Source: Arcobacter sp. LA11 (GTDB lineage: Bacteria > Campylobacterota > Campylobacteria > Campylobacterales > Arcobacteraceae). Taken from it: 64,000 bases of DNA. Within the stretch, counting starts at the first letter, position 1. Each line of letters begins with the position of its first letter. Below the pieces are notes generated by a model. That model was not told the DNA's origin, ran no database searches, and was given only the letters and a program-made list of their open reading frames with translations. The stretch is from assembly GCF_001895145.1 (NCBI RefSeq), contig NZ_BDIR01000003.1, positions 124,001 to 188,000 on the forward strand, read 5' to 3'. This document shows, one piece after another, positions 1 through 13,548 of the stretch. A program made the position numbers and the translations under genes.

Positions 1-1256
1 AAAGAGATATTATAGCACTTGATGAAAAATTAAATATTGCATACATGGTTTACAACGGTAACTTATTTAATTTATTCCCTCAAATAGGTGTTAATGATAA
101 TAACAAATGGTATACACCTCTTGATGCTATGAAATCATTTAAAGGAGAGAACCAAAAAGCTGTAGAATCTATGGTTAGAGGTTTTATAAACTCTGTTATA
201 AATGAAAACTGGGAAGTATCAAATAAATTTTTAGATATGTTATCACAATATCAAGAAAAAGCAGGAGCACAAGTTATTCCTTCTAAGTCACAAATTGATA
301 AAGAGATTGCTTTTAACAATTTAGATATTTTTCCTAAAATTACACTTGCATATATTATTTTAGGTTTTGTAATGTTAATTGTTGCATTTATTGTTGTTTT
401 TAATCCTAAAATTAAACCAAGAAAAACTACATTTGTATTTTTTATTTTACTAGCAATTCTTTTTGCACTTCATACTTTTGGTATGGGGTTTAGATGGGTT
501 GTTTCAGGACATGCGCCTTGGTCAGATACATATGAATCTCTTTTATATATTTCATGGTCAGCAATTTTTGCTGGGGTTATTTTCTTTAGAAAATCACTTC
601 TTGCATTAAGTGCAGCTGTAATAGTAGCTGGTATTTTTATGTTTACAGCACACTTAACAGGTATTAACCCTCAAATTACAAACCTAGTGCCTGTACTAAA
701 ATCATACTGGTTAACAATTCATGTTTCAATTTTAACAGCTTCATATGGATTCTTTGGATTAGGTGCTATTTTAGGTTATATGTCATTAATAATGTATATA
801 TTTAGAAAAGGTAGACCTCATTTAGATGAAACAATTAAACATATTACTGCTATTAATGAAATTGCGTTAATTATTGGATTATCAGCGATTACTATTGGAA
901 ACTTCCTTGGTGGAGTTTGGGCAAATGAATCTTGGGGTAGATATTGGGGATGGGATCCAAAAGAGACTTGGGCTTATGTATCAATCGTATTATATGTATT
1001 AGTTGTACACTTAAGATTTGTTAAACCACTTAACAATCCATTTGTATTCTCAACAGCATCATTATTGACATTCTCTTCAATTTTAATGACATATTTTGGA
1101 GTAAACTTTTATCTATCAGGAATGCACTCGTACGCAACAGGGGATCCAGTTCCAGTTCCTATGTGGGTATACTATATAACAGCTGCTATCTTTGTAACAA
1201 TAGGACTTGCATACAAAAATAGAAATCTAAAAGATGATGTTTGTCATACAAAATAA
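1..1256 (+). CDS. ccsBA: Cytochrome c synthetase CcsBA, C-terminal (CcsA) part, truncated by window edge
   Basis: The reading frame is open from the first bases of the window to the stop at 1254-1256, so this is the 3' part of a longer gene; the first ATG at 45 is internal. The fragment is a polytopic membrane protein with the WWD-type heme-handling motif WGWDPKETWA about 100 residues before its end, and conserved-type histidines in TIHVSIL and GMHSYATGD. This is the CcsA/ResC half of system II cytochrome c biogenesis, which attaches heme to CXXCH motifs at the periplasmic face. In Campylobacterota CcsB and CcsA are usually fused, and the large non-membrane segment before the first helix seen here fits a fusion. 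It would mature the multiheme and monoheme cytochromes encoded at 8.5-11.9 kb, but nothing shows it is dedicated to them. Confidence 0.88.
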   Translation, partial: RDIIALDEKLNIAYMVYNGNLFNLFPQIGVNDNNKWYTPLDAMKSFKGENQKAVESMVRGFINSVINENWEVSNKFLDMLSQYQEKAGAQVIPSKSQIDKEIAFNNLDIFPKITLAYIILGFVMLIVAFIVVFNPKIKPRKTTFVFFILLAILFALHTFGMGFRWVVSGHAPWSDTYESLLYISWSAIFAGVIFFRKSLLALSAAVIVAGIFMFTAHLTGINPQITNLVPVLKSYWLTIHVSILTASYGFFGLGAILGYMSLIMYIFRKGRPHLDETIKHITAINEIALIIGLSAITIGNFLGGVWANESWGRYWGWDPKETWAYVSIVLYVLVVHLRFVKPLNNPFVFSTASLLTFSSILMTYFGVNFYLSGMHSYATGDPVPVPMWVYYITAAIFVTIGLAYKNRNLKDDVCHTK

Positions 1257-1404: not shown

Positions 1405-2142
1405 ATGAATCATGACAAGTTACACAATATTATTGCATTTACAAAAGATTTACATGTTCTATATATAGAAGACAATTTCGATGTAAGAGAACAGACTATA
1501 AAAATGCTTCAAATCTTTTTTACGTCTATAGTAGTTGCAAAAAATGGTTCAGAAGGATTAAATCTATTTAATTCAAACAATAAATATGAATCTACATCTT
1601 TTGATTTAATTATTACAGATATAGAAATGCCTGTAATTGATGGAATTTCCATGATAAATTCTATTAGAGATACAAATAAAGATATCCCAATTTTAATTTT
1701 TTCTGCACATAGTAATACTGATTACTTTCTAAAAACGATCAATGCAGGAATTGATGGATACATACTAAAACCCTATAATATTGAACAAATATCTAATTCT
1801 TTGATGAATATAATTGAGAAAAATAAACTTACTAACTCAAATGATCATATAATTCATTTAGAAGATGATTATATTTGGAATTTAAAAGATTCTTTATTAT
1901 ACAAAAATGAAGAAATCATAAAGCTAACAAAAAATGAGATAAAACTTTTTACTTTATTTATAACTTCGAAAGGTTCTTTAAAAACCTATGATGAGATAGA
2001 ATCATATATTTTTAATGATTTTAGTTCAAATAATAAAAGAGTTAGAAACTTAGTTTCAAGACTAAAGATAAAACTAGATTATGAAATCTTTGAATCTATT
2101 TACTCTCATGGATATAAATTAAAATATAAAAACTTTTTATAA
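1405..2142 (+). CDS. OmpR/PhoB-type response regulator
   Basis: The 245-residue protein has an N-terminal receiver domain (about 14-130) with acidic pair E22-D23, phospho-acceptor D72 (ITDIEMP), S100 and K122 (LKPYN). The C-terminal part (about 145-243) has an OmpR-type winged helix, shown by the start LTKNEIKLFTLF and the end RVRNLVSRLK...YSHGYKLKYK. It is a DNA-binding output protein of a two-component system. The kinase that follows (2214-5057) is its likely partner. A direct repeat with 11-bp period sits between the two genes, exactly where an OmpR-type activator of the kinase promoter would bind, so it probably controls the downstream operon. The target genes beyond that are not visible. 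Confidence 0.9.
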   Translation: MNHDKLHNIIAFTKDLHVLYIEDNFDVREQTIKMLQIFFTSIVVAKNGSEGLNLFNSNNKYESTSFDLIITDIEMPVIDGISMINSIRDTNKDIPILIFSAHSNTDYFLKTINAGIDGYILKPYNIEQISNSLMNIIEKNKLTNSNDHIIHLEDDYIWNLKDSLLYKNEEIIKLTKNEIKLFTLFITSKGSLKTYDEIESYIFNDFSSNNKRVRNLVSRLKIKLDYEIFESIYSHGYKLKYKNFL

Positions 2143-2151
2143 TTCATAAAT

Positions 2152-2186
2152 ATTGAGACATTATTGAGACAATTTTTTGATATAAT
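2152..2186 (+). promoter_or_regulatory. 11-bp-period direct repeat plus -10 box: OmpR-type activated promoter
   Basis: ATTGAGACA occurs at 2152-2160 and again at 2163-2171, one helical turn apart. Nine bases later comes TATAAT (2181-2186), giving an inferred start near 2193 and placing the repeats at about -41 to -22, in place of a -35 element. This is the layout of PhoB/OmpR-class activator sites. The regulator encoded immediately upstream is the obvious candidate. Confidence 0.55.
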
Positions 2187-2213
2187 CTTAAAAATATAAT
2201 CAAAAAGCTTATA

Positions 2214-5057
2214 ATGAATAAACTGATAAATAATCTAATAATACTCTTAATTCTTTCATTTTCAGTTTTTGCAAATGATAATATAAACTTAACAATAGAA
2301 GAAAAAAAGTTTTTAAAAAATAACTCTCCATTAAGACTTCATAATGAGTTAAATTGGCCTCCATATAACTATTATCAAAATGATAAACCAAAGGGTTTCT
2401 CTATTGATTATTTAAATTTATTGGCAAAAAAAATAAATACTGATATAAAATTTATTACAGGTCCTTCGTGGGATGAGTTTATGCAGATGCTCCAAAATGA
2501 CGAAATAGATGCCATTATTAATATTTCAAAAAATGAACAAAGAGCTAAAACAATTGCTTTTACATCAATTTTTCATACTGCTGCGAATGCAATTTATGTA
2601 AAGAACGGTGATGAACAACTGGATTCTTTAGAAAAATTAGAAGGCAAGACTATTGTTATGCCAAAAGGTTTTTTTGCACAAAAAGCAATTGCAAAGTACT
2701 ATCCTAAAATAAATCAAATATTAGTAAAAGATTCCCTTGAAGCACTAAAGCTACTATCTTTAGGAAAGGCCGATGCAACTATTGGAAAAAAGAATGTAAT
2801 TGACTATGTAATTACATTAAACAATATTTCAGGGGTTAGCCCGACAAATTATGTTGATGATAATAGAATGGTAAGTTTAATACGTATAGGTACTTCAAAA
2901 AAGAAAGCTATTCTTAGAGATATTTTAGAAAAAGCTCAAAAAAGTGTTACAGATGAAGAATTACTTTCTTTAAAAAGAAAATGGTTTGGAGCTAGAGAAA
3001 TAAAAGAAGATCTTTTTAGTAATTTTTTAACTAAAAGAGAATCCAACTATATTTCAAAAAGAAAAATCATAAGAATGTGTAATATCAATGATTTAAAACC
3101 TATTTCATTTAAAGAAGATGAAAAATTAAAAGGTATTACTATTGATATATTAAAAAAAATCGAAAAGCTGATTAATATTCGATTTATTCCCATTAAAACA
3201 AAATCTTGGGAACAATCAAAAGAGTATTTAAGAACAAATAGATGTGATATTATTCCTACAGTAACAAACAGTAATGAATTAATCGATTATGCAAAGTTTA
3301 CAAAACCTTATCTAAACTATAAATTAGCAATCATAACTCAGAAAAATAAACCTGTTGTATCAAGTTTAGATGATATTTTAGATAAAACAATGGCAAAAAA
3401 ATATGATTCTCAATTAATTACTCTATTAAAATCTACAAATCCAGATTTAAATATTTTAAAAACGAAAAACGATAGAGAAACGATAGAAGCAGTTAGTACA
3501 GGAAAAGCATATTTTGCAGTAGAACCACTTCCTATAGCCTCTTATTATATGTCAAATTACGCACTAAAAAATCTTTATATTTCTAGATATACAAATATGT
3601 CCTATACTGTTAATATGGCTGTAAATAGTAATAACCCTATTCTTTTGAGTATTTTAGATAAAACATTAAGCCAAATTAATGAAAATGAACACAGAGAAAT
3701 ATTTAATAAATGGACTGCGGTATCATTTGAAACGACTTTTGATTATACATTTTTATGGGAAACAATATTTGTTATTTTAGTTATTATTGCAATTTTTTCC
3801 TATAGACAATATGTTTTAAATAAGCATAATAAAACATTACAACTAGCAAATGATGAAATTGAAGAAAAAACTATTGAGCTTGCAAAACAGAAAATATTAT
3901 TTGAAAAATTATATGATAAATCATCGGATGGAGTTCTTTTAATACGAAATAATTTAATTACAAGCTGTAATGAGTCAACACATAATATTTTGAAATATTC
4001 AAAATCTGAAATACTTTATAAGCATTTATATGAAATATCGCCTTATAGACAACCAAATGGTGAAATATCAAAAGAAAAATCTGAAAATATGATAAGAGAA
4101 ACTTTGCACAAAGGTGTTTCAAGTTCAGAATGGATTTTTGCAGATGCAAATAATCAAAGTATTTGGGTAGAGATAGTACTTACTTCTATTGAAATAGAAG
4201 GAAATAGAGTTATACATACTGTGATTAGAGATATATCAAATAGAAAAATTTTAGAGCAGAAACTTGAAGATTTAAATATTAATCTTGAAGAGAAAATCAA
4301 AAAAGAGATAATCAAAAATGAAAAAAATACAAAACAACTAATCCAACAATCAAGACTTGCTCAAATGGGAGAAATGATTTCAATGATTGCACATCAATGG
4401 AGACAACCCCTTGCTGCTATATCTGCTACTACTAATAATTTACTAATCAAAATGTTAATTGATAAAAAAGTGGATAAAGAGCTTATTGAAAATGAATTAA
4501 AATTAATTACAGATTATTCTCAACATTTATCTTCTACAATAGATGATTTTAGAAATTTCTTTAAAACAGAAAAAGAAAAAAATGAATTTGATTTAGAATT
4601 ACTTATTTTAAAATCTATTAGTATAATTAAAACATCTATTGAATCAAATAATATTATTCTAAAAACACAATTTAACTCAAATTTGAAGGTTTTTTCATAT
4701 TCTACAGAAATTCAACAAGTTATATTAAATATTCTTAAAAATGCAGAAGATATATTGATTGAAAAAGATTCAGATGACAAAAAAATAGAAATAACAACTT
4801 ATAAAAAAGATGATACATCAGTATTAATTAAAATTCATGACAATGGAGGAGGAATCGAAAATAGCGTTATTGAAAAGATTTTTGACCCCTACTTCTCTAC
4901 AAAAGATACTAAAGATGGAACAGGACTAGGATTATATATGAGTAGAATTATAATAAATGAACATTGTGAAGGAAATTTAAGAGTTGTAAATGAGTATGAT
5001 GGAGCAACTTTCTTAATAGAGTTACCAACTAATAATATGGATAAAAAAAATGCCTAA
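2214..5057 (+). CDS. Hybrid-type sensor histidine kinase with two periplasmic solute-binding domains and PAS
   Basis: This 947-residue protein starts with a signal sequence, then two bacterial extracellular solute-binding family 3 domains (about 25-255 and 275-505), one membrane helix (about 515-535), a short coiled coil, a PAS domain (about 565-680), and a kinase core. The H-box is IAHQWRQPLAA with phospho-acceptor H727; N (NILKNAED), G1 (DNGGGIE) and G2 (GTGLGLYMS) boxes follow. The tandem Venus-flytrap design is that of BvgS/EvgS kinases, which sense small ligands in the periplasm. There is no C-terminal receiver or Hpt domain, unlike BvgS. The stop overlaps the next gene by 8 bases, so kinase and REC-GGDEF protein are translationally coupled. 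Ligand unknown. Confidence 0.9.
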   Translation: MNKLINNLIILLILSFSVFANDNINLTIEEKKFLKNNSPLRLHNELNWPPYNYYQNDKPKGFSIDYLNLLAKKINTDIKFITGPSWDEFMQMLQNDEIDAIINISKNEQRAKTIAFTSIFHTAANAIYVKNGDEQLDSLEKLEGKTIVMPKGFFAQKAIAKYYPKINQILVKDSLEALKLLSLGKADATIGKKNVIDYVITLNNISGVSPTNYVDDNRMVSLIRIGTSKKKAILRDILEKAQKSVTDEELLSLKRKWFGAREIKEDLFSNFLTKRESNYISKRKIIRMCNINDLKPISFKEDEKLKGITIDILKKIEKLINIRFIPIKTKSWEQSKEYLRTNRCDIIPTVTNSNELIDYAKFTKPYLNYKLAIITQKNKPVVSSLDDILDKTMAKKYDSQLITLLKSTNPDLNILKTKNDRETIEAVSTGKAYFAVEPLPIASYYMSNYALKNLYISRYTNMSYTVNMAVNSNNPILLSILDKTLSQINENEHREIFNKWTAVSFETTFDYTFLWETIFVILVIIAIFSYRQYVLNKHNKTLQLANDEIEEKTIELAKQKILFEKLYDKSSDGVLLIRNNLITSCNESTHNILKYSKSEILYKHLYEISPYRQPNGEISKEKSENMIRETLHKGVSSSEWIFADANNQSIWVEIVLTSIEIEGNRVIHTVIRDISNRKILEQKLEDLNINLEEKIKKEIIKNEKNTKQLIQQSRLAQMGEMISMIAHQWRQPLAAISATTNNLLIKMLIDKKVDKELIENELKLITDYSQHLSSTIDDFRNFFKTEKEKNEFDLELLILKSISIIKTSIESNNIILKTQFNSNLKVFSYSTEIQQVILNILKNAEDILIEKDSDDKKIEITTYKKDDTSVLIKIHDNGGGIENSVIEKIFDPYFSTKDTKDGTGLGLYMSRIIINEHCEGNLRVVNEYDGATFLIELPTNNMDKKNA

Positions 5058-6042
5058 TAATTTAAAAGAATTAATCAATTATGGTCAAACATTAAATGTA
5101 CTATTTATTGAAGACAATGAAGAAGTAAGAATCCAATTAGAAAAACTTTTGAAAAACTTTTTTTCAAATATTGATATGGAAGAAAATGGTTTAGATGGAT
5201 ATGAAAGATATATTGATTTTAAAAACAAAAATGATAGATCTTACGATTTAGTAATTACAGATTTGAGTATGCCAAAAATGGATGGTGTAGACTTATGTAA
5301 GCAAATAATGAAAGATAACCCTAATCAGCTTATTTTAGTAATCTCTGCACATACAGAATCTAAAAAACTGATAGAGCTTATAGATATTGGCATTTATAAA
5401 TTTCTTCAAAAACCTGTAGATTATAATAATTTATTAAATAGTTTATCTTTGATAATTTCAAAAATAAAAAGAGAAAAATCTTATGTAAAACTTGAAACTG
5501 AAGTTAAAAATATCAAAGATCATAATGAAAAACTTAATGAATTAGTAATAACTGACAAATTGACCTCTATCTACAATAGACGTTTTATTGATAATATATT
5601 AAATCAAAGATTTTCTGATTTAGAAAGTAATTCAAATAAAGAACTATCAATAATTTTTATTGATATTGATGATTTTAAATTAATAAATGATTTTCATGGA
5701 CATTTAATAGGAGATCAGATTTTAGTAGAATTCTCTCAAAAATTAAAATCTTTAATAAGAGCTAACGATATTTTAGGACGTTGGGGTGGAGAAGAGTTTA
5801 TTATAATTTCAGATAGAACAAATCTTGAATCTGCAAAAAGTATTGCAGAAAAGTTAAGAAAAGGTATAGAAAATAGTACTTTTACTAAAGTAGATAAATT
5901 AACAGCAAGCTTTGGAATAGCCTCATATGAAGAAAAAGATTGTATACATAATCTAATCCAAAAAGCTGATTATAGTTTATATAAAGCAAAAGAAGAAGGT
6001 AAGAATAAAGTCTGTTTTATTGATAATTTAAATAAATTATAA
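5050..6042 (+). CDS. Response regulator diguanylate cyclase (REC-GGDEF)
   Basis: This 330-residue protein has a receiver domain (about 10-130; E21-D22, phospho-acceptor D71 in ITDLSMP, K near FLQKPVD), a short helical linker, and a GGDEF domain (about 165-327). The active-site motif is GGEEF at 246-250. An inhibitory I-site RxxD (RAND) lies five residues before it, so product feedback is expected. It should convert GTP to cyclic di-GMP when phosphorylated, probably by the kinase whose 3' end it overlaps by 8 bases. It converges on the kinase gene 6017-7813 and the two 3' ends overlap by 26 bases. Confidence 0.92.
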   Translation: MPNNLKELINYGQTLNVLFIEDNEEVRIQLEKLLKNFFSNIDMEENGLDGYERYIDFKNKNDRSYDLVITDLSMPKMDGVDLCKQIMKDNPNQLILVISAHTESKKLIELIDIGIYKFLQKPVDYNNLLNSLSLIISKIKREKSYVKLETEVKNIKDHNEKLNELVITDKLTSIYNRRFIDNILNQRFSDLESNSNKELSIIFIDIDDFKLINDFHGHLIGDQILVEFSQKLKSLIRANDILGRWGGEEFIIISDRTNLESAKSIAEKLRKGIENSTFTKVDKLTASFGIASYEEKDCIHNLIQKADYSLYKAKEEGKNKVCFIDNLNKL

Positions 6043-7813
6043 ATTCTGCACCATATTCTTTATTTTCAACAGTAATTTTACCTTTCATTTTATCTTCTAT
6101 AATTGCTTTTGATAAATAAAGACCTATTCCTGTACCTTTATCTTTTTTAGTAGTAAAATATGGGTCAAAAATATTATTTATAATATTTTTAGGTATTCCT
6201 TCTGCATTATCATTTATAATTATTCTTATACCTTTTTCATCTTTTTTTATAAGCAAATTAATTAATGGTTTCTCAATACTATTCTCTTCTAAAGCATCTT
6301 TTGCATTAACTATTAAATTCATTAAAACTTGCGAAAATTCATTTTTATTTCCATGCAATTTTACTTTTTGTTCATCTTCAATATTAATTTCAATATTATT
6401 ATGTTCTAACATAGGTCCAATAATTTTTAATATTGAGTCTATAGCATCAACTACAAAAAAGTCTTTCTTTTCATTATCTTTTTTATAAAAATCCTTAAAG
6501 TTATCAATAGTATTAGACATAAATTCTATATGATGAAGCGAAGTATCTAAAGAATCATTTAACATTTTATCATCAAGTTTTCCTTTATTTTGAAAAGCTT
6601 TTAAGTTTTGTAAAGTTAAAGAAAGTCTTGTTAAAGGATGTCTCCATTGATGAGCAATATTTCCAATCATATCCCCAAGCTCTGCTAGTTTTCCTTGATT
6701 TTGAAGAAGTCTATCTTTTTTAGCATTCTTTAAAGTTTCAATCCTTACTTTCTTATCTAAATTTGTTGCTAATTCATGTAATTTATCAGCTTGAGAAACT
6801 ACAATCTCGTACATATGTTTTAAAGGACTAGAAAATATTATACTAAATATTATTGACATAAAAAAAGAAAATATTAAAATTGCAATAATCATTTTATTAT
6901 TATTTTCTTCAACTTCTTTTAGTGATTTATCTGTCTCAACTAAAACCATATTAAACCTTTGATTTCCCAAAAGTAAGGGTTGTACATAAAGATTACTAGT
7001 TAAAACTCTACCTTTTAAATTGTCTTTTTGTATTTCATATACAATTTCATCTTCAAAATCATGATCTAATCTATGTTTAGTATGATATAAAGACCAATCA
7101 TACTTTGGGTTCTTATGTTTTATATAATATCCTGCACTATCGGAGATATAAATATCATATAAAGTTGATTTCGTAATACTACTAAAAAGTTCTCGCATAA
7201 AAATATTTATAATTAAAATACCTTCAAATTCATTATTTATATATATTGGTGTTGCAACTCTCACAACGGATTTATTTGGTTGTTCAACTTTACCATGTTC
7301 TATATTTAAATCAATGGGAGAAAACCATACAGAGTTATGGTTTATTTGACTAGCATTTTTAAAATAGTATCTACTTGATTTATCCTGTAACCTAGAGGTT
7401 TTATAAGGTTCTTGAGATTTTTTTTCTCTTTCAAATCTAAGTTTTTCCATACCATTTTTATCTATATATCTCATTTGCATATACTCTTTATTTGCCTCCA
7501 TAATTGTAAGAAATAATAAATCAATATAATAGTTGTAAGCTCCATTATCAACAAATCTTAAAAAATATTCATTTTTTGAAATTGCAAGAATAGCATCACC
7601 TCTTTTTTTAAAAAAGCTATCAAATTCTTTTTTCTTTTCATTACTTTGTAAAGTTACTTCTCTTTCAAACTTATGAAGTTTTAAATCATCAGATAAATAG
7701 ATATGAATAACAGTAATTGAGGCAATTAACAATAGTGTAAATGTTATATACGATAAAAAAAGTTTAAATCCAAAGTTTTTATGTTCTTTAGATAATTTAT
7801 CAACTTCAATCAT
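6017..7813 (-). CDS. Cache-type sensor histidine kinase
   Basis: This 598-residue protein has a membrane helix at about 16-40, a periplasmic region of roughly 265 residues of Cache (PAS-like) type, a second helix (about 309-332), a linker, and a kinase core with H388 in IAHQWRHPLTR. It ends with an HATPase domain containing DNAEGIP and KGTGIGLYLSK. The G1 box reads DNAEG rather than the usual DNGGG, a mild deviation. The gene follows the OmpR-type regulator 7806-8456 with an 8-base overlap, so they form a cognate pair. Its position in the same transcription unit as a thioredoxin-fold protein and a monoheme cytochrome, divergent from the 12-heme cytochrome, suggests it senses a substrate or redox state linked to that respiration. 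The ligand is unknown. Confidence 0.88.
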   Translation of the reverse strand: MIEVDKLSKEHKNFGFKLFLSYITFTLLLIASITVIHIYLSDDLKLHKFEREVTLQSNEKKKEFDSFFKKRGDAILAISKNEYFLRFVDNGAYNYYIDLLFLTIMEANKEYMQMRYIDKNGMEKLRFEREKKSQEPYKTSRLQDKSSRYYFKNASQINHNSVWFSPIDLNIEHGKVEQPNKSVVRVATPIYINNEFEGILIINIFMRELFSSITKSTLYDIYISDSAGYYIKHKNPKYDWSLYHTKHRLDHDFEDEIVYEIQKDNLKGRVLTSNLYVQPLLLGNQRFNMVLVETDKSLKEVEENNNKMIIAILIFSFFMSIIFSIIFSSPLKHMYEIVVSQADKLHELATNLDKKVRIETLKNAKKDRLLQNQGKLAELGDMIGNIAHQWRHPLTRLSLTLQNLKAFQNKGKLDDKMLNDSLDTSLHHIEFMSNTIDNFKDFYKKDNEKKDFFVVDAIDSILKIIGPMLEHNNIEINIEDEQKVKLHGNKNEFSQVLMNLIVNAKDALEENSIEKPLINLLIKKDEKGIRIIINDNAEGIPKNIINNIFDPYFTTKKDKGTGIGLYLSKAIIEDKMKGKITVENKEYGAEFIIYLNYQ

Positions 7814-8456
7814 ATTTTTCTATCTTATAACCGATATTTCTAATATTTGTAATAAAATTATCTTCTAGTTTATTTCTAAGTTTTTTTATTTTTGTTCTTA
7901 AAGTGTTATCACAAACATCTTTTTCTTCCCAAACGTAATCTTTAATGATATCAGGACTAACGGCTATTCCTATATTTTTCACAAGAAGATATAGTAACTC
8001 TTTTTCTTGATTATTTAAAAGAACAGGTTCTTTTTTATAAAAAAGTTGCATACTACATAAATCGAAACAATAATTCTCATTGATTTTTATTCTTTCCATA
8101 CAATCTTTATGTATTAGTTGATTGATTCTTAACTCTAATTCTTCAAACAAGAAAGGTTTTCTAACATAATCATTACATCCCGCTGCATAACCATCTTTTA
8201 CATGGTCTAAATCATTCATAGCAGTTAAATATATTGCAGGAGTATCACAGCTTTTTCTTATCTCTTTTAAAGTCTCTATTCCATTTTTTATTGGTGTGTT
8301 AATATCTAATAAAAGAATATCATAGATTGATAAGACTGAATTATCCAATAATGATTGTCCATCATTGTAAAAATCCACTTTATGTCCATCTAATTCAAAA
8401 TAATTTTTTACTTGTTCACAAATAAAATCATCATCTTCTAATAGCAAAATTTTCAT
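7806..8456 (-). CDS. OmpR-type response regulator of the dodecaheme cytochrome island
   Basis: This 216-residue protein has a receiver domain (about 1-115; acidic cluster E7-D8-D9-D10, phospho-acceptor D51 in LLLDINTP, T78, K100 in VRKPF) and a C-terminal winged helix (about 125-214, with DNTLRTKIKKLRNKL and NIRNIGYKIE). It lies 17 bases downstream of the monoheme cytochrome gene and overlaps its kinase. The direct repeat GCACTTTCA at 9456-9475, next to the cytochrome promoter, has the 11-bp period typical of targets of this family and is the best candidate for its binding site (inference). Confidence 0.9.
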   Translation of the reverse strand: MKILLLEDDDFICEQVKNYFELDGHKVDFYNDGQSLLDNSVLSIYDILLLDINTPIKNGIETLKEIRKSCDTPAIYLTAMNDLDHVKDGYAAGCNDYVRKPFLFEELELRINQLIHKDCMERIKINENYCFDLCSMQLFYKKEPVLLNNQEKELLYLLVKNIGIAVSPDIIKDYVWEEKDVCDNTLRTKIKKLRNKLEDNFITNIRNIGYKIEKYD

Positions 8457-8473
8457 ATAATACTTTCATTTTT

Positions 8474-8842
8474 TTAATTACATGTAGGAACATGCTCAGA
8501 GTCATAAGCAAACTCTTGTAAAAATTCTAGCATTAATTTACTTTGCTTTTTAAATTCATCTCCTTTTAAATATACAATAACATTTTTGGTTGAATTGTCT
8601 TCTTCATGGAAATAAATTAACTCGCTAGCATTTTTTGAAAAGAACTCTTTCCATTCTCTTATTGAAGCAATATTACCTCCTCTACTTCCTTCTCCATGGC
8701 ATGAAGAACAATTCTTTAAATAATAGTCTTGACCTTTCAAATTTTTAGTAGCGTATTCACCTCTAATTTTTTCAGCATTTAAGTTAAAACTTAAAGAAAT
8801 CATAATTATTAAATATAAATTTATCTTATTAATTATTTTCAT
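8474..8842 (-). CDS. Periplasmic monoheme cytochrome c
   Basis: This 122-residue protein has a signal peptide (about 1-23, ending FNLNA) and a single CXXCH heme motif (CSSCH, residues 45-49) early in the mature part. Candidate distal methionine ligands lie near residue 100 (KLMLEF). Size and order fit a small class I cytochrome c acting as a soluble electron carrier. Its start overlaps the stop of the thioredoxin-fold gene (ATGA-type, 4 bases), so they are co-translated. A role as electron donor or acceptor for the divergently encoded 12-heme cytochrome is plausible but rests only on position. The protein ends in VPTCN, leaving one extra cysteine next to the C terminus. Confidence 0.85.
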   Translation of the reverse strand: MKIINKINLYLIIMISLSFNLNAEKIRGEYATKNLKGQDYYLKNCSSCHGEGSRGGNIASIREWKEFFSKNASELIYFHEEDNSTKNVIVYLKGDEFKKQSKLMLEFLQEFAYDSEHVPTCN

Positions 8843-9327
8843 TTTATCATTCCTTTTTCTTTTAATTTATTATGTTTTTTAACTGCATCATCCATCCATT
8901 CCAACATTTGATCTAGTTGCCACATTCCATAAATAATCATGTGTTTTTTACCCCGCCTAGCAAGCTTTTCTTCTTCTGCACCCATAAAATAAATTGCTGG
9001 AGTCATTGATACAGTTAATCTTGGTGGACATTGTCCAGTATTGGCTACATCTGAATCTGCATCTAATGAATTATCTAAAATTACAGGAATAAAATGCTTT
9101 TTAATTTTATCTTTAAACTCTTTTTTACTAAATACTTCTTTCTTTAATTTTGGGCAATAAAAGCAGGTTCTAGATTCTAGAAACATAAATATTAATTTGT
9201 CATGATACTTTGCTAATTGCTTTGTTTCATCAAAATCAGACTGCCAATCTAAACCTTCTTGCCAAGAAAAATCTTCTGCAAAAAGCGATGAAATTAATAC
9301 TAAAAAACTAAATATAATTCTTTTCAT
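8839..9327 (-). CDS. Periplasmic thioredoxin-fold protein (SoxW-like)
   Basis: This 162-residue protein has an N-terminal signal peptide (about 1-17), then a thioredoxin-like domain with redox motif CFYC (C55, C58) after LIFMFLESRT and the expected cis-proline in SMTPAIYF. Such SoxW/thioredoxin_7-type proteins reduce disulfides in the periplasm, often to keep the CXXCH cysteines of apocytochromes or the active cysteine of sulfur enzymes reduced. It also contains an additional cysteine in GQCPPR. It is the first gene of the minus-strand unit with cytochrome, regulator and kinase. AGGAG about 8 bases before the ATG is a good ribosome binding site. A second, related protein is encoded on the other side of the big cytochrome (12704-13177). 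Confidence 0.82.
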   Translation of the reverse strand: MKRIIFSFLVLISSLFAEDFSWQEGLDWQSDFDETKQLAKYHDKLIFMFLESRTCFYCPKLKKEVFSKKEFKDKIKKHFIPVILDNSLDADSDVANTGQCPPRLTVSMTPAIYFMGAEEEKLARRGKKHMIIYGMWQLDQMLEWMDDAVKKHNKLKEKGMIK

Positions 9328-9356
9328 TATAGACTCCTAAATTTCGACTTTTTTTT

Positions 9357-9398
9357 ATTCTAACAGATTGTAATTTAATTAAAATTGATTAAAATCAA
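9357..9398 (-). promoter_or_regulatory. FNR/CRP-type box at -41.5 of the minus-strand thioredoxin-cytochrome-TCS operon
   Basis: TTGATTAAAATCAA at 9385-9398 is a perfect TTGAT-N4-ATCAA match, inside a 7+2+7 palindrome (9384-9399). On the minus strand TAGAAT at 9362-9357 is a good -10, giving an inferred start at 9350. The box centre (9391.5) then falls at exactly -41.5, the class II activator position for FNR/CRP-family proteins. Which family member binds cannot be told. Confidence 0.6.
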
Positions 9399-9455
9399 TC
9401 TTTAAAACTTAACTTATTCTTAAATATTAGTAATAAATATAAAAAATTAGTTTAG

Positions 9456-9493
9456 GCACTTTCAAAGCACTTTCATCTGATAGAATTCATAAA
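9456..9493 (+). promoter_or_regulatory. Direct repeat and -10 of the dodecaheme cytochrome promoter
   Basis: GCACTTTCA is repeated at 9456-9464 and 9467-9475, an 11-bp period. Candidate -10 boxes follow: TAGAAT at 9481-9486 (start near 9493), or CATAAA at 9488-9493 (start near 9500). No -35 is seen. The arrangement fits activation by the OmpR-type regulator encoded at 7806-8456. Confidence 0.5.
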
Positions 9494-9495
9494 TG

Positions 9496-9513
9496 GTTGG
9501 GTATTGTCCCAAC
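9496..9513 (+). other. 5'-leader hairpin of the dodecaheme cytochrome mRNA
   Basis: GTTGGG (9496-9501) and CCCAAC (9508-9513) form a 6-bp GC-containing stem with a 6-base loop, close to the inferred transcript 5' end and 7 bases before the strong AAAGGAG ribosome binding site (9521-9527). It may protect the mRNA from decay. Confidence 0.4.
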
Positions 9514-9533
9514 AATACATAAAGGAGAAGAAG

Positions 9534-11900
9534 ATGAAAAGCTCGATGTTTAGAATTGCTAAAATCGCTTTTATTACAGCAATGCTTTCAACTTTTGCTT
9601 TTGGTGCGGTTGAGCATTCAAAAGGAAAAACTGAAATGGCTGCTGTTGAAGGTGGTGATTCATGTATCAAGTGTCATAAAGGTATTGAGTCTATTAGAGA
9701 CGAAAAATCTGACATGATGCAACAAATCGTTGCTATGGGTCAAGGTCTTGGCGATACTGCAGGTTGTGTAGTTTGTCATGGTGGTAACCCAGAAGATGGT
9801 ACTGTTGCAGGAGCACACAAAGGTGCACCAAAAGCTCACGCTGGAGGTTTATCTGAATTTGTTAGAGATCCAGGTTCTATGTGGATTGCTGATAAAACAT
9901 GTGGTATCTGTCACGCAGATACAGTAGAAAATACTATGAAGTCGTTAATGATGACAGAAGCTGGTAAAATCCAAGGTAATATGCATACTTGGGGAACATA
10001 TAATACTAAAAAAGTACAATATGCTAACTATGATGTAAAAGATGAAGATGGGAAAACACCTGCTTGGGGGACTAAGGTATATAAAGATTATATGGTAAAA
10101 ATGATCGATAAATATCCTGACCAATTCCCTACTGAGTTAAAACAACTTCCATTACCACCTAGTGGACCAGAAGATTTCGTTGGTAAATCAGAAGAAGAAA
10201 TTGGTGCTATGGCATCTATTACTTACCAAAGATCTGATTGTCAAAGATGTCACATTGGTGTAAGAGGTAGAAAAGGTAGAGGTGACTGGAGAGGTATGGG
10301 ATGTTCTGCATGTCATATGCCATATGGAAACGAAGGTATTTACGAAGGTGGAGATCCAACAATTGATAAAAAAGAACATGGTCATATGTTAGTTCACATG
10401 ATGCAAGGTTCTAGAGAAGCAAAAGTTAAAACACCATCTGGTATGGAATTTAGCGGTATTCACCCTGAAACTTGTAACTCTTGTCATAATAGAGGAAAAA
10501 GAATCGGTGTATCTTACGTTGGTTTAATGGAACAACCTTATGGTTCACCACTTCAAGCTGGTGGTAAATCACAATCTAAACATCATGGTAAGAGATATAA
10601 ACATATCAAAGAAGACTTACACTTTGAAGCTGGTATGACTTGTCAAGATTGTCACACATCTGTTGATATGCATGGTGATGGTACATTATTTGGTACTACA
10701 TTAGGTCAAGTTGAAATTGAGTGTTCTGACTGTCACGGTACAAATGACAAATATCCATGGGAATTAAAAATTGGTTATGGTGAAAAATTTGGTATCGATA
10801 CTCCTGAAGGTCCAAGAGGTATGACTAATGAGTTACCATACTTTATGACTCAAGGTACAGTATATGACAAGCAAGATGGATATTTACTATCAACTAGAGG
10901 GAACCCACTTGGTAACGTTGTTAAACATAAAGGTTCAAATAAAGTTACTGTTCACTTAGCATCTGGAAAAGATTTAGAAGTGCCTTTATTAAAATATAAA
11001 GCAGAGACTTCATCATGGAAATCTAAAAATGCTGATGTAGCTATGGGTAAAATTCAAGCACACATGGATAACCTAGAGTGTTATGCTTGTCACTCTGATT
11101 GGGCACCACAATGTTACGGATGTCACGTTAAAGTAGATTATACTCCTGGTAAATCTAAAATTGACTGGATAGCATCTGGATCAACTAACTTTAAAAATGG
11201 TGAAACATCTGAGTCTGTATTAGGTACTAAAGGTAAGAAATTATTTGGTAAACCAAGTGAAACTAGATCTTACTTAAGATGGGAAGACCCAATCTTAGGA
11301 ATCAATGGTGAAGGTCTTGTTACTCCTGTTATTCCTGGTTGTCAAGTTACATTTACGGTAATTGGACCTGATGGTAAAACATTAATTCTTAACAAACAAG
11401 CTAGAGTTTCAGACAATGGTCAAACAGTTGCTGGTACAGATATGGCACCAGTACAACCTCACACATCTGGAAGAAAAGCTAGATCTTGTGAATCTTGTCA
11501 CTCTAATCCTAAAGCTTTAGGTTATGGTATTAATGATGGACAATTTATCCAAAAACAAGGTGAAGATTTATACATGGATCTTCAAGATTTAAGAACTAAG
11601 AAATTTGTTCCAGCAAATAAAACTGTTCAAATGAAAGCAATTCCAGGTATGGATTACGATTGGTCACAAATTGTAACTAGAGATGGAAAACAACTTCAAA
11701 CTGTTGGTTCTCACTGGCCTGATTCAAGACCTCTTGATCAAGATATGAGAGAAAACATGGAGAAAACTGGTTTATGTATGGGTTGTCATCAAAATATGAA
11801 AAATGACGAACTATGGGAAAAAGTAAACACAGATAAGAAATTGAATGTTACAGAACATATCAATAAAATGCATGAGTTGATTAATAAAGCTGCTAAATAG
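9534..11900 (+). CDS. Periplasmic dodecaheme c-type cytochrome
   Basis: The ATG at 9534 is chosen because AAAGGAG precedes it and it begins a clear signal peptide (about 1-25, ending AFGA); an upstream in-frame ATG at 9504 lies in the leader hairpin. The mature protein of about 763 residues has 12 CXXCH motifs: CIKCH (44), CVVCH, CGICH, CQRCH, CSACH, CNSCH, CQDCH, CSDCH, CYACH, CYGCH, CESCH and CMGCH (748). Many extra histidines (HMLVHMM, KHHGKRYKH, DLHF) can serve as distal ligands. No membrane anchor or lipobox is visible, so it is soluble and periplasmic. It is either a multiheme oxidoreductase or an electron conduit. It lacks the CX15CH site of MccA-type sulfite reductases and the CXXCK of NrfA. 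Two heme pairs are very close (CYACH and CYGCH are 11 residues apart). I do not recognise the subfamily. Thioredoxin-fold genes on both sides suggest dedicated help with maturation. Confidence 0.85.
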   Translation: MKSSMFRIAKIAFITAMLSTFAFGAVEHSKGKTEMAAVEGGDSCIKCHKGIESIRDEKSDMMQQIVAMGQGLGDTAGCVVCHGGNPEDGTVAGAHKGAPKAHAGGLSEFVRDPGSMWIADKTCGICHADTVENTMKSLMMTEAGKIQGNMHTWGTYNTKKVQYANYDVKDEDGKTPAWGTKVYKDYMVKMIDKYPDQFPTELKQLPLPPSGPEDFVGKSEEEIGAMASITYQRSDCQRCHIGVRGRKGRGDWRGMGCSACHMPYGNEGIYEGGDPTIDKKEHGHMLVHMMQGSREAKVKTPSGMEFSGIHPETCNSCHNRGKRIGVSYVGLMEQPYGSPLQAGGKSQSKHHGKRYKHIKEDLHFEAGMTCQDCHTSVDMHGDGTLFGTTLGQVEIECSDCHGTNDKYPWELKIGYGEKFGIDTPEGPRGMTNELPYFMTQGTVYDKQDGYLLSTRGNPLGNVVKHKGSNKVTVHLASGKDLEVPLLKYKAETSSWKSKNADVAMGKIQAHMDNLECYACHSDWAPQCYGCHVKVDYTPGKSKIDWIASGSTNFKNGETSESVLGTKGKKLFGKPSETRSYLRWEDPILGINGEGLVTPVIPGCQVTFTVIGPDGKTLILNKQARVSDNGQTVAGTDMAPVQPHTSGRKARSCESCHSNPKALGYGINDGQFIQKQGEDLYMDLQDLRTKKFVPANKTVQMKAIPGMDYDWSQIVTRDGKQLQTVGSHWPDSRPLDQDMRENMEKTGLCMGCHQNMKNDELWEKVNTDKKLNVTEHINKMHELINKAAK

Positions 11901-11921
11901 TAGTTTAATTATCTAACTTAG

Positions 11922-11947
11922 AAAAAAGGGGTTTAGGCCCCTTTTTT
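11922..11947 (+). terminator. Rho-independent terminator of the cytochrome gene
   Basis: A 10-bp stem (six A-T pairs plus GGGG/CCCC) with loop TTTAGG ends in TTTTTT. It separates the cytochrome from the three genes that follow. Confidence 0.9.
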
Positions 11948-12023
11948 AATATCTAATTTTTTTTAATTATGTTATTATCCAGTCTAAATAATATAATTAA
12001 AAATAATTAATTAAAGGATACAA

Positions 12024-12704
12024 ATGAATACAAAATTATTTTCAAAAATGACTCTTAGCTCTATAATTACGGCATCTATAATATTTACAGGATGTGGAGA
12101 AAAAACGGATGAAGCAAAAAAAATAGAAAGCCCTGCAATTATTAAATCTGAAAAAGTTGAAAAAATGAAAGATGAAAAACCGGCAGAACCTAAAAAAGAA
12201 GCTATGTCTGTATATACAAAATATGATTCTGTTGTACAAGATGTATTCAAAGATGTTGCAAAAATTGCTCCAGAGGGAAAGCAAATGATATTAGTTTTTG
12301 GAACAAATACTGATCCTTATTCTGATAGATTAAAAGCAGATATACAAAATACTCCTGATTTAGAAAAAAGATTAAAAGAAGATTTTAATTCTTATTATTT
12401 TAAAGCTCATGAAAACTTAAGACATAAACAATTTCATGAAGGTGAAATGATGGATGTTGATACAAAAACTATGATTGCTGTTTATAGTGTAACTGCAACT
12501 CCAACTATTATCTTTACAGACGATAATGGTAAAGCTGTTATTGTTGTACCTGGGTATATGCCTCCAAAGCAGTTTTTAGTAACTATGGACTTTATGGCAG
12601 AAGGTAAATGGAAAGGTAAAGATAGAAAAAATGGAGAAGTATATGAAGCTTTAAGAGACTTCTATATTGCAAAAGGTATAAACGTAAAGAAGAAGGCTGA
12701 ATAA
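12024..12704 (+). CDS. Lipoprotein with cysteine-free thioredoxin-like fold
   Basis: This 226-residue protein has a lipoprotein signal ending IIFTGC (lipidated C24), a charged Lys/Glu-rich linker (about 27-60), and a thioredoxin-like domain (about 65-215) with strand MILVFGTNTD and cis-proline region SVTATPTIIF. Where a thioredoxin would carry CXXC the sequence reads TDPYSD, and C24 is the only cysteine in the protein. It therefore cannot do thiol-disulfide exchange and more likely binds or scaffolds a partner. The next gene, overlapping its stop by one base, encodes a related fold with an intact CPYC. Such pairs suggest a membrane-anchored adaptor plus an active redox partner; this is inference. 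Confidence 0.75.
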   Translation: MNTKLFSKMTLSSIITASIIFTGCGEKTDEAKKIESPAIIKSEKVEKMKDEKPAEPKKEAMSVYTKYDSVVQDVFKDVAKIAPEGKQMILVFGTNTDPYSDRLKADIQNTPDLEKRLKEDFNSYYFKAHENLRHKQFHEGEMMDVDTKTMIAVYSVTATPTIIFTDDNGKAVIVVPGYMPPKQFLVTMDFMAEGKWKGKDRKNGEVYEALRDFYIAKGINVKKKAE

Positions 12705-13177
12705 TGAAAAAGATTTTATTAACTTTTTTATTTTTAATAAGCTCACTATTTAGTAGTGAACTATTTAAAACTGGAAACAAACTTGTAGCAGATGGAAAAG
12801 GGGTAATCTTTGTTTTTGAGAGTGCAACCTGCCCTTATTGTGATCTTCTAAAAAAAGATTTCAAAGAAAATAAAGAGATGAACGAATTAGCAAAGAATTT
12901 CAATATTTACTTAATTGATAGAGAAAAAGAACAAGACTATATTGTAGGGAAAACAAAGAAAAAAGAGACTACTACTACATTAAGAATGGCTTTTTCAACT
13001 AAAAATACCCCTACAATTACAATCTTTGACAAAAACTGGAATAGAATATTTCAACTACCAGGATATGCACACCCAGAACAAATGATTACTTTTATGAAAT
13101 TTGTAAAAGGGTTACATGAAGGTAAGTATAAAACAGATCAATGGAAGAAATTCTTAAAAGATAATGGTGTTGAATAA
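12704..13177 (+). CDS. Periplasmic thioredoxin-fold protein with CPYC motif (SoxW-like)
   Basis: This 157-residue protein has a signal peptide (about 1-18, ending LFSS), a thioredoxin-like domain with motif CPYC (C43, C46) following VIFVFESAT, and a cis-proline in KNTPTITIF. CPYC is also the glutaredoxin motif, but size, signal peptide and the C-terminal LPGYAHPEQ region match SoxW-like periplasmic thioredoxins. It starts on the last base of the preceding lipoprotein gene (TAATG) and the next gene begins directly after its stop, so the three form a tight operon beside the 12-heme cytochrome. Likely role: reductant for periplasmic thiols, such as apocytochrome heme sites. Confidence 0.82.
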   Translation: MKKILLTFLFLISSLFSSELFKTGNKLVADGKGVIFVFESATCPYCDLLKKDFKENKEMNELAKNFNIYLIDREKEQDYIVGKTKKKETTTTLRMAFSTKNTPTITIFDKNWNRIFQLPGYAHPEQMITFMKFVKGLHEGKYKTDQWKKFLKDNGVE

Positions 13178-13531
13178 ATGAAAACTTTATTAAAAATTGC
13201 ACTTCTTTTTACTATTACTACATCTATTTTTGCAGAAGTGGTATGGTTAAAAGAAGCAAAGACAAGAATGAGTTGGAAAGATGCTATGCAATATTGTAAA
13301 GATATGAATGCAATTTTACCATCAAAAAAAGTTTTTCAAGAAATTTGGTATAAAAACAATAAAGCATCTGATATAGATGGATTTGAAATGTCAGTATCAT
13401 ATTGGACAAGTGATGAAGTAAAAGGAAATGAAAAGTATGCTGCTTATCCTTTTTATTTTGGAGAAGGTCGAGATAGTTGGTATTATAAAGCGGATCACTA
13501 TGGAGTAAGATGTATAAAAAAAGTTAAGTAG
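13178..13531 (+). CDS. Small periplasmic protein with DUF1566/Lcl-like domain
   Basis: This 117-residue protein has a signal peptide (about 1-20, ending SIFA) followed by a compact domain that reads like the Lcl/DUF1566 fold: MSWKDAMQYCKDM, a WTSDE segment, a YPFYFGEGR strand and a terminal YGVRCIKKVK. Two cysteines, one in each half, could form a disulfide. Its ATG follows the stop of the CPYC protein with no gap, so it belongs to that operon. The family is often found in secreted proteins of Campylobacterota and its function is unknown. Its pairing here with thioredoxin-fold proteins would make sense if its disulfide needs management. Confidence 0.65.
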   Translation: MKTLLKIALLFTITTSIFAEVVWLKEAKTRMSWKDAMQYCKDMNAILPSKKVFQEIWYKNNKASDIDGFEMSVSYWTSDEVKGNEKYAAYPFYFGEGRDSWYYKADHYGVRCIKKVK

Positions 13532-13548
13532 AGAATTAAATCTCTACT
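13527..13548. terminator. Bidirectional terminator between convergent genes
   Basis: AGTAGAGA (13527-13534) pairs with TCTCTACT (13541-13548) around a 6-base loop. A run of A on the left gives a T-run on the minus strand, so it best fits the ABC-F gene, and overlaps both stop regions. Confidence 0.65.

Follow-up and report, generated by a model that had tools for sequence, protein, structure and literature searches.

The closest named relative of the cytochrome considered here is ExtM, a 12-heme protein of the Geobacter ext cluster, whose porin ExtI is needed for normal selenite and tellurite reduction (PMC5877670). A second point of reference is TsdA, a diheme thiosulfate dehydrogenase/tetrathionate reductase in which a His/Cys heme forms the active site for tetrathionate and thiosulfate, making this an established ligation in a sulfur enzyme (PMC5146829). 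The present locus is a gene island at positions 8474–13531 of a 64,000-nucleotide stretch (the window) of contig C3 (NZ_BDIR01000003.1, positions 124,001 to 188,000) in the 3.1-Mb genome of Arcobacter sp. LA11, the host being a marine relative of Arcobacter. At its heart lies the gene for an exported cytochrome of 788 residues with exactly 12 CXXCH motifs (P0001). We propose that this protein is a dedicated periplasmic reductase used under oxygen limitation, possibly with a His/Cys heme and acting on a sulfur- or selenium-type substrate, a reading to which we assign a probability of about 0.4 and in which we infer both the substrate and the catalysis. The initial annotation had described a dodecaheme cytochrome island with dedicated regulators and thiol proteins, and its gene order and coordinates proved exact; in agreement with it, domain scans placed thioredoxin-fold proteins, three in number, a monoheme cytochrome, an OmpR-type regulator and its kinase around the 12-heme gene.

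The cytochrome has 25 cysteines, 24 in the heme motifs and one extra, Cys603. All 12 motifs align across 109 twelve-heme-type sequences, three ExtM-like ones included, so their number is not a product of chance. Pfam returned only generic cytochrome c7/c3 matches, and the hidden Markov model (HMM) search suggested in the initial annotation gave no strong match to a characterised dodecaheme enzyme: the best named hit in NCBIfam was ExtM (NF040943) at 217 bits (E 4e-64), below the curated equivalog cut-off of 800 bits that was reached in 0 of 104 Arcobacteraceae genomes. The alignment shows the 12 motifs in the same order with alignable core motifs, which places the protein in a wider ExtM-related superfamily, and by sequence it is a diverged relative of Geobacter ExtM. 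The two proteins are homologous over most of their length, with all CXXCH aligned, and have in common the PGCQV cysteine and the CHNR..RIG and DPHT-type motifs; the ExtM-like paralogs of Arcobacteraceae also carry the 12 hemes and the PGCQV cysteine in register. However, the window protein is about 190 residues longer, most of the inserted sequence falling between hemes 3 and 4 and after heme 8, and its island has its own two-component system (TCS) and thioredoxin-fold partners, the ext partners (porin, ExtN, Rieske and cytochrome b genes) being absent among the window neighbours scanned.

Other multiheme enzymes were compared as well. The octaheme sulfite reductase MccA is likewise a large periplasmic multiheme cytochrome of Campylobacterota, but it differs from the window protein in heme number, and a motif search found neither CX15CH nor CXXCK anywhere in the 788 residues; with no MccA-type family match, and the cytochrome c552 family of NrfA absent from the match lists, the earlier exclusion of both patterns stands. 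HAO and other octaheme oxidoreductases gave no HMM match. TsdA resembles the window protein only in how it may work, through the hypothesised His/Cys heme and a sulfur substrate, and the Pfam and NCBIfam matches revealed no sequence relation to it. Searches of PDB sequences with the protein and its profile yielded chance-level cytochrome matches only. A first AlphaFold model (53 sequences, predicted local distance difference test (pLDDT) 76) had no PDB match, and a second was built from 78 sequences (pLDDT 87.4, predicted template modelling score 0.85). The best Foldseek row of the model was an HAO-like protein (6h5l) at a non-significant E of 1.8, and the only PDB chain with Z of at least 2 was OcwA, the outer cell wall cytochrome of Thermincola (6i5b; Z 2.2, root-mean-square deviation 5.7, 231 residues, model residues 39–667), at 17% identity; so low a Z may reflect only a shared heme-packing arrangement. 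For a predicted structure, this lack of a significant PDB match neither shows nor excludes kinship, nor does it show a new fold.

A scan of genome contigs detected 555 stretches related to the cytochrome. By record title, the best 80 of these 555, mostly metagenome bins, belong to Campylobacterota, Alpha- and Gammaproteobacteria, Thermaceae, Chloroflexi, Planctomycetota, Nitrospinota and Poribacteria, the closest being loci titled Campylobacteraceae, Campylobacterales, Arcobacter or Halarcobacter. Among 397 sampled Campylobacterota genomes (species), 47 encode a family member, in 19 of 68 genera. The tree separates four clades: A (the window, or P0001, type), N (other phyla), B (other Campylobacterota) and C (10 hemes), N being sister to A. 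Plasmid records contained weak partial matches only, and we found no literature on this cytochrome, whether in Arcobacteraceae or as a Campylobacterota dodecaheme.

Both the dedicated control of the gene and its membership have good support from sequence. In the intergenic region, the direct repeat GCACTTT-N4-GCACTTT stands in place of the -35 element of the cytochrome gene; OmpR-type regulators bind direct repeats of this 11-bp-period kind. The box has one copy in 3.1 Mb even with one mismatch allowed (reversed control, 0), and the exact box is found in 14/15 gene-positive versus 3/89 gene-negative Arcobacteraceae genomes (Fisher p 1e-13). It sits upstream of the cytochrome gene in 14 of the 15, and all three copies in gene-negative genomes fall within coding genes. 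Across 37 distinct promoters, 33 match the box with fixed geometry, three retain one full half-site and one (L031) matches poorly. An added set gave the box in 5/5 clade A loci (one previously included) with at most one mismatch and in 0/21 clade B and C loci, which are without the TCS, even at two mismatches; no locus outside Campylobacterota has it. The promoter elements noted earlier are thus real and more specific than claimed, amounting to a single direct-repeat promoter of activator type ahead of the cytochrome gene. The case for dedicated regulators is strengthened by the one matching promoter in the genome and by conservation of the TCS beside the gene. One gene-positive genome has a second exact box (G065:C24:5332-5349, L130), which is intergenic with no cytochrome gene nearby and could be a second target or chance.

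The kinase is the only PF21623 match in the genome, and its family (F5) is found again next to the 12-heme gene in P0001-type loci with a long enough contig. In Gammaproteobacteria and Chloroflexi, too, a sensor of this class stands next to the cytochrome, together with an NtrC-type regulator in the former and a NarL-type one in the latter; no sigma-54 sites were found upstream of cytochrome genes with NtrC-type neighbours. As a marker of the system the PF21623 sensor was rejected, being present in 65/104 family genomes, often without the cytochrome. The hairpin of the 5' untranslated region (5'-UTR) lies directly upstream of the ribosome site and may stabilise the transcript: three of its six pairs show compensatory changes among nine Arcobacteraceae (L081–L089), a structure that holds for this subset only; no consensus emerged across 17 5'-UTRs.

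Outside Campylobacterota the gene shows an enrichment of FNR boxes. Perfect FNR boxes precede it in 9 of 39 loci, compared with 9 of 427 other open reading frames taken as background (p 2e-6), and with one mismatch allowed the counts are 17/39 and 26/427; the comparison is conservative because some background matches belong to the gene that diverges from the cytochrome gene across their shared intergenic region. A Crp/Fnr gene is adjacent to the cytochrome gene in ten of these non-Campylobacterota loci. Such boxes favour an acceptor over a donor. The respiratory module for an acceptor or donor that the initial annotation had envisaged is supported, with the correction that known kin exists in ExtM.

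How far the island is conserved depends on the clade. Given a long enough contig, all but a few clade A loci keep the kinase and regulator genes, the 12-heme gene and that of the Cys-less lipoprotein. Several loci are without the monoheme and CFYC genes and one of them (L174) also without the CPYC gene, which leaves the TCS, the cytochrome and the Cys-less lipoprotein as the core. The expectation of similar neighbours around orthologs holds within the P0001-type clade but not outside it, where maturation genes, FNR-type regulators or unrelated genes are found. CcmE, CcmF, CcmG, CcmH and related genes are frequent neighbours outside Campylobacterota, CcsBA is close by in several Campylobacterota loci, and the neighbours in clades B and C are mostly housekeeping or lineage-specific genes. 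CcmF is present in two or three copies in four roseobacter-type genomes and in one full-length copy in the other four tested. The common thread of these neighbourhoods is a link to cytochrome maturation and therefore to the reduction of heme-site thiols, and the thioredoxin-fold proteins would serve this maturation, or else Cys603.

Cys603 is kept in 109/109 twelve-heme-type sequences. All four 10-heme relatives, which make up clade C, have Ile at this position and have lost hemes 10 and 12. Because heme 10 and the cysteine are lost in the same clade, Cys603 is a possible distal ligand of heme 10, which would then be a His/Cys heme. About 11 conserved non-motif histidines are available for the 12 hemes of clade A, N and B proteins. 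The 10-heme members are loci L171, L172, L173 and L178, each without hemes 10 and 12 and Cys603; judged by sequence appearance, the L171 gene has DsbA/DsbB-like genes and possible arylsulfotransferase genes in its vicinity.

A sulfur- or selenium-type reductase is favoured because of the link of ext to selenite and tellurite, the FCSD-type flavoprotein gene found within the gene run of several Arcobacteraceae relatives, the low-oxygen regulation elsewhere and the possible likeness of Cys603 to TsdA ligation. In the mechanism we propose, a periplasmic signal, probably the substrate, would lead the phosphorylated regulator to bind the repeat and switch on the cytochrome gene. The exported apoprotein would be kept reduced by its thioredoxin-fold neighbours, and CcsBA would attach its 12 hemes. 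Electrons would arrive from the quinol pool via a bc-type complex and/or the monoheme cytochrome and pass down the chain of hemes to the catalytic one, for which the likeliest candidate is heme 10, with Cys603 on the distal side. There, at low oxygen, a substrate such as selenite, tellurite, a polythionate or thiosulfate would be reduced.

Several points weigh against this proposal. The joint loss of Cys603 and heme 10 is seen in one clade of four sequences, and the assignment is not unique because H351 and heme 12 are lost there too. The FNR evidence stems from other phyla and not from Campylobacterota, the FCSD-type gene is absent from the window, and we infer binding of the regulator to the box from their co-occurrence. 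To our knowledge there is no biochemistry for any member of the subfamily, and the protein may do no more than carry electrons.

That last possibility, a non-catalytic electron wire or capacitor linking quinol oxidation to other partners in the periplasm or outer membrane, the role assumed for multiheme conduits, is rather unlikely in our judgement. The 11 conserved histidines could ligate almost every heme, a Chloroflexi relative adjoins what appear by sequence to be cytochrome-b-like, Rieske-like and tetraheme genes, and the ExtM cluster holds other cytochromes, a Rieske/cytochrome b pair and a porin (PMC5877670). However, a pure wire fits poorly with the many invariant residues that the family alignment shows besides the heme ligands and with a single, strictly kept cysteine. 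Nor does the conserved Campylobacterota island contain a porin or surface cytochrome gene; no outer-membrane porin gene of a porin-cytochrome conduit (MtrAB/PCC type) was recognised in the window island or in conserved P0001-type neighbourhoods.

The thioredoxin-fold partners, the monoheme cytochrome and the flavoprotein of the Arcobacteraceae relatives would also suit an oxidative enzyme, or a protein that accepts electrons from reduced sulfur (sulfide, thiosulfate), acting together with the flavoprotein and the monoheme cytochrome. We consider this improbable: the flavoprotein gene is lacking not only here but in most loci, there are no Sox genes in the island, and the FNR-type boxes elsewhere point to low-oxygen use. 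Two FCSD-type flavoprotein paralogs (L131, L132) are encoded elsewhere in the genome, at G000:C2:296200-297495, near thioredoxin-like genes, and at G000:C1:8494-9822. Reduction of nitrogen oxides or other small toxic oxidants (nitrite, nitric oxide, hydroxylamine, peroxide) under FNR/DNR-like control elsewhere is equally improbable, for although NO-responsive regulators also use the TTGATnnnnATCAA box and the best Foldseek row was HAO-like, there is no NrfA or HAO family match, no CXXCK or CX15CH, and no nitrogen-oxide gene recognised in the conserved neighbourhoods.

If our reading of the window protein as a reductase is extended to its relatives, they might form a widespread, unrecognised class of anaerobic respiratory reductases in Campylobacterota and several other phyla: 12-heme enzymes whose catalytic heme has His/Cys ligation and whose substrates are sulfur or selenium oxyanions, with low-oxygen or substrate control that differs between lineages and with helpers dedicated to heme attachment; we regard this wider claim as speculative and on the whole doubtful. 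What the present analysis adds is a named superfamily (ExtM), an apparently private regulatory switch, the FNR enrichment and maturation-gene neighbours elsewhere, and the invariant Cys603. The family is a widespread multiheme one for which we found neither a tested function in the literature nor a solved structure close to it. The once-per-genome promoter and the adjacent sensor make its substrate findable, as a promoter reporter would reveal the inducing compound. Should the reading of Cys603 be true, a large multiheme reductase would join the small number of His/Cys-heme enzymes known so far, and this would bear on the marine cycling of sulfur or selenium.

Table 1. Features of the island and its surroundings, in window positions unless a contig is given.
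Feature	Position	Strand	Remarks
CcsBA, C-terminal part (System II cytochrome c synthase)	1..1256	+	single genome match; 55% identity to CcsBA with Cytochrom_C_asm and ResB
Full CcsBA gene	G000:C3:122503-125232		begins before the window
Sensor histidine kinase	6017..7813	-	PF21623 sensor domain, HisKA and HATPase, all above cut-off
OmpR-type response regulator	7806..8456	-	Response_reg and Trans_reg_C, above cut-off; 8-base overlap with kinase gene
P0002, exported monoheme cytochrome c	8474..8842	-	invariant C-terminal Cys121; heme motif 30/30, C121 30/30
P0003, exported thioredoxin-7-type protein	8839..9327	-	invariant CFYC-type motif; C55 and C58 30/30
Direct-repeat box GCACTTT-N4-GCACTTT (GCACTTTCAAAGCACTTT), putative activator box	9456..9473	+	11-bp period; first half overlaps -35 position
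-10 element TAGAAT	9481..9486	+	7 bp 3' of box; TAnnaT at fixed spacing
5'-UTR hairpin GTTGGG/CCCAAC	9496..9513	+	probably at or near transcript 5' end
P0001, exported 12-heme cytochrome, 788 aa, ExtM superfamily	9534..11900	+	
Cys603 codon	11340..11342	+	only non-heme cysteine; PGCQV motif
Terminator-like inverted repeat AAAAAAGGGG/CCCCTTTTTT	11922..11947	+	between cytochrome gene and downstream genes
P0004, thioredoxin-fold lipoprotein	12024..12704	+	no CXXC; lipobox Cys24 only; C24 40/40
P0005, exported thioredoxin-fold protein	12704..13177	+	CPYC; C43 and C46 38/38
P0006, exported small Lcl_C-domain protein	13178..13531	+	last gene of run; family F16 in relatives
Bidirectional terminator-like hairpin	13527..13548	.	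closes island

The regulator and kinase genes sit just left of position 8474, where the earlier description began, and the Lcl_C protein, the CcsBA heme lyase and the 5'-UTR hairpin are additions to it (Table 1). CcsBA at the window start is the only CcsBA-type heme lyase found in the genome, and for this reason the idea of a dedicated extra heme lyase was rejected here.

Some neighbouring genes recur in other lineages. In many non-Campylobacterota loci (L033, L039, L052, L066 and others) a tetratricopeptide repeat lipoprotein (F6) and a protein of about 197 residues and no known family (F10) follow the cytochrome gene, and Alphaproteobacteria (L054, L078 and other loci) often have a Rap1a-type protein (F9) in their place. 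Ext-like loci occur in Arcobacteraceae as well, with ExtM-like 12-heme proteins at L096 (G043) and L098 (G066); a rhodanese-like gene lies beside the first and Rieske- and cytochrome-b-like genes beside the second, and G066 carries both an ext-like and a window-type gene. Finally, a second regulatory cluster adjoins the island at window positions 1405–6042, encoding a protein that resembles a response regulator, a large kinase that contains two substrate-binding-like domains, and a receiver-GGDEF protein.

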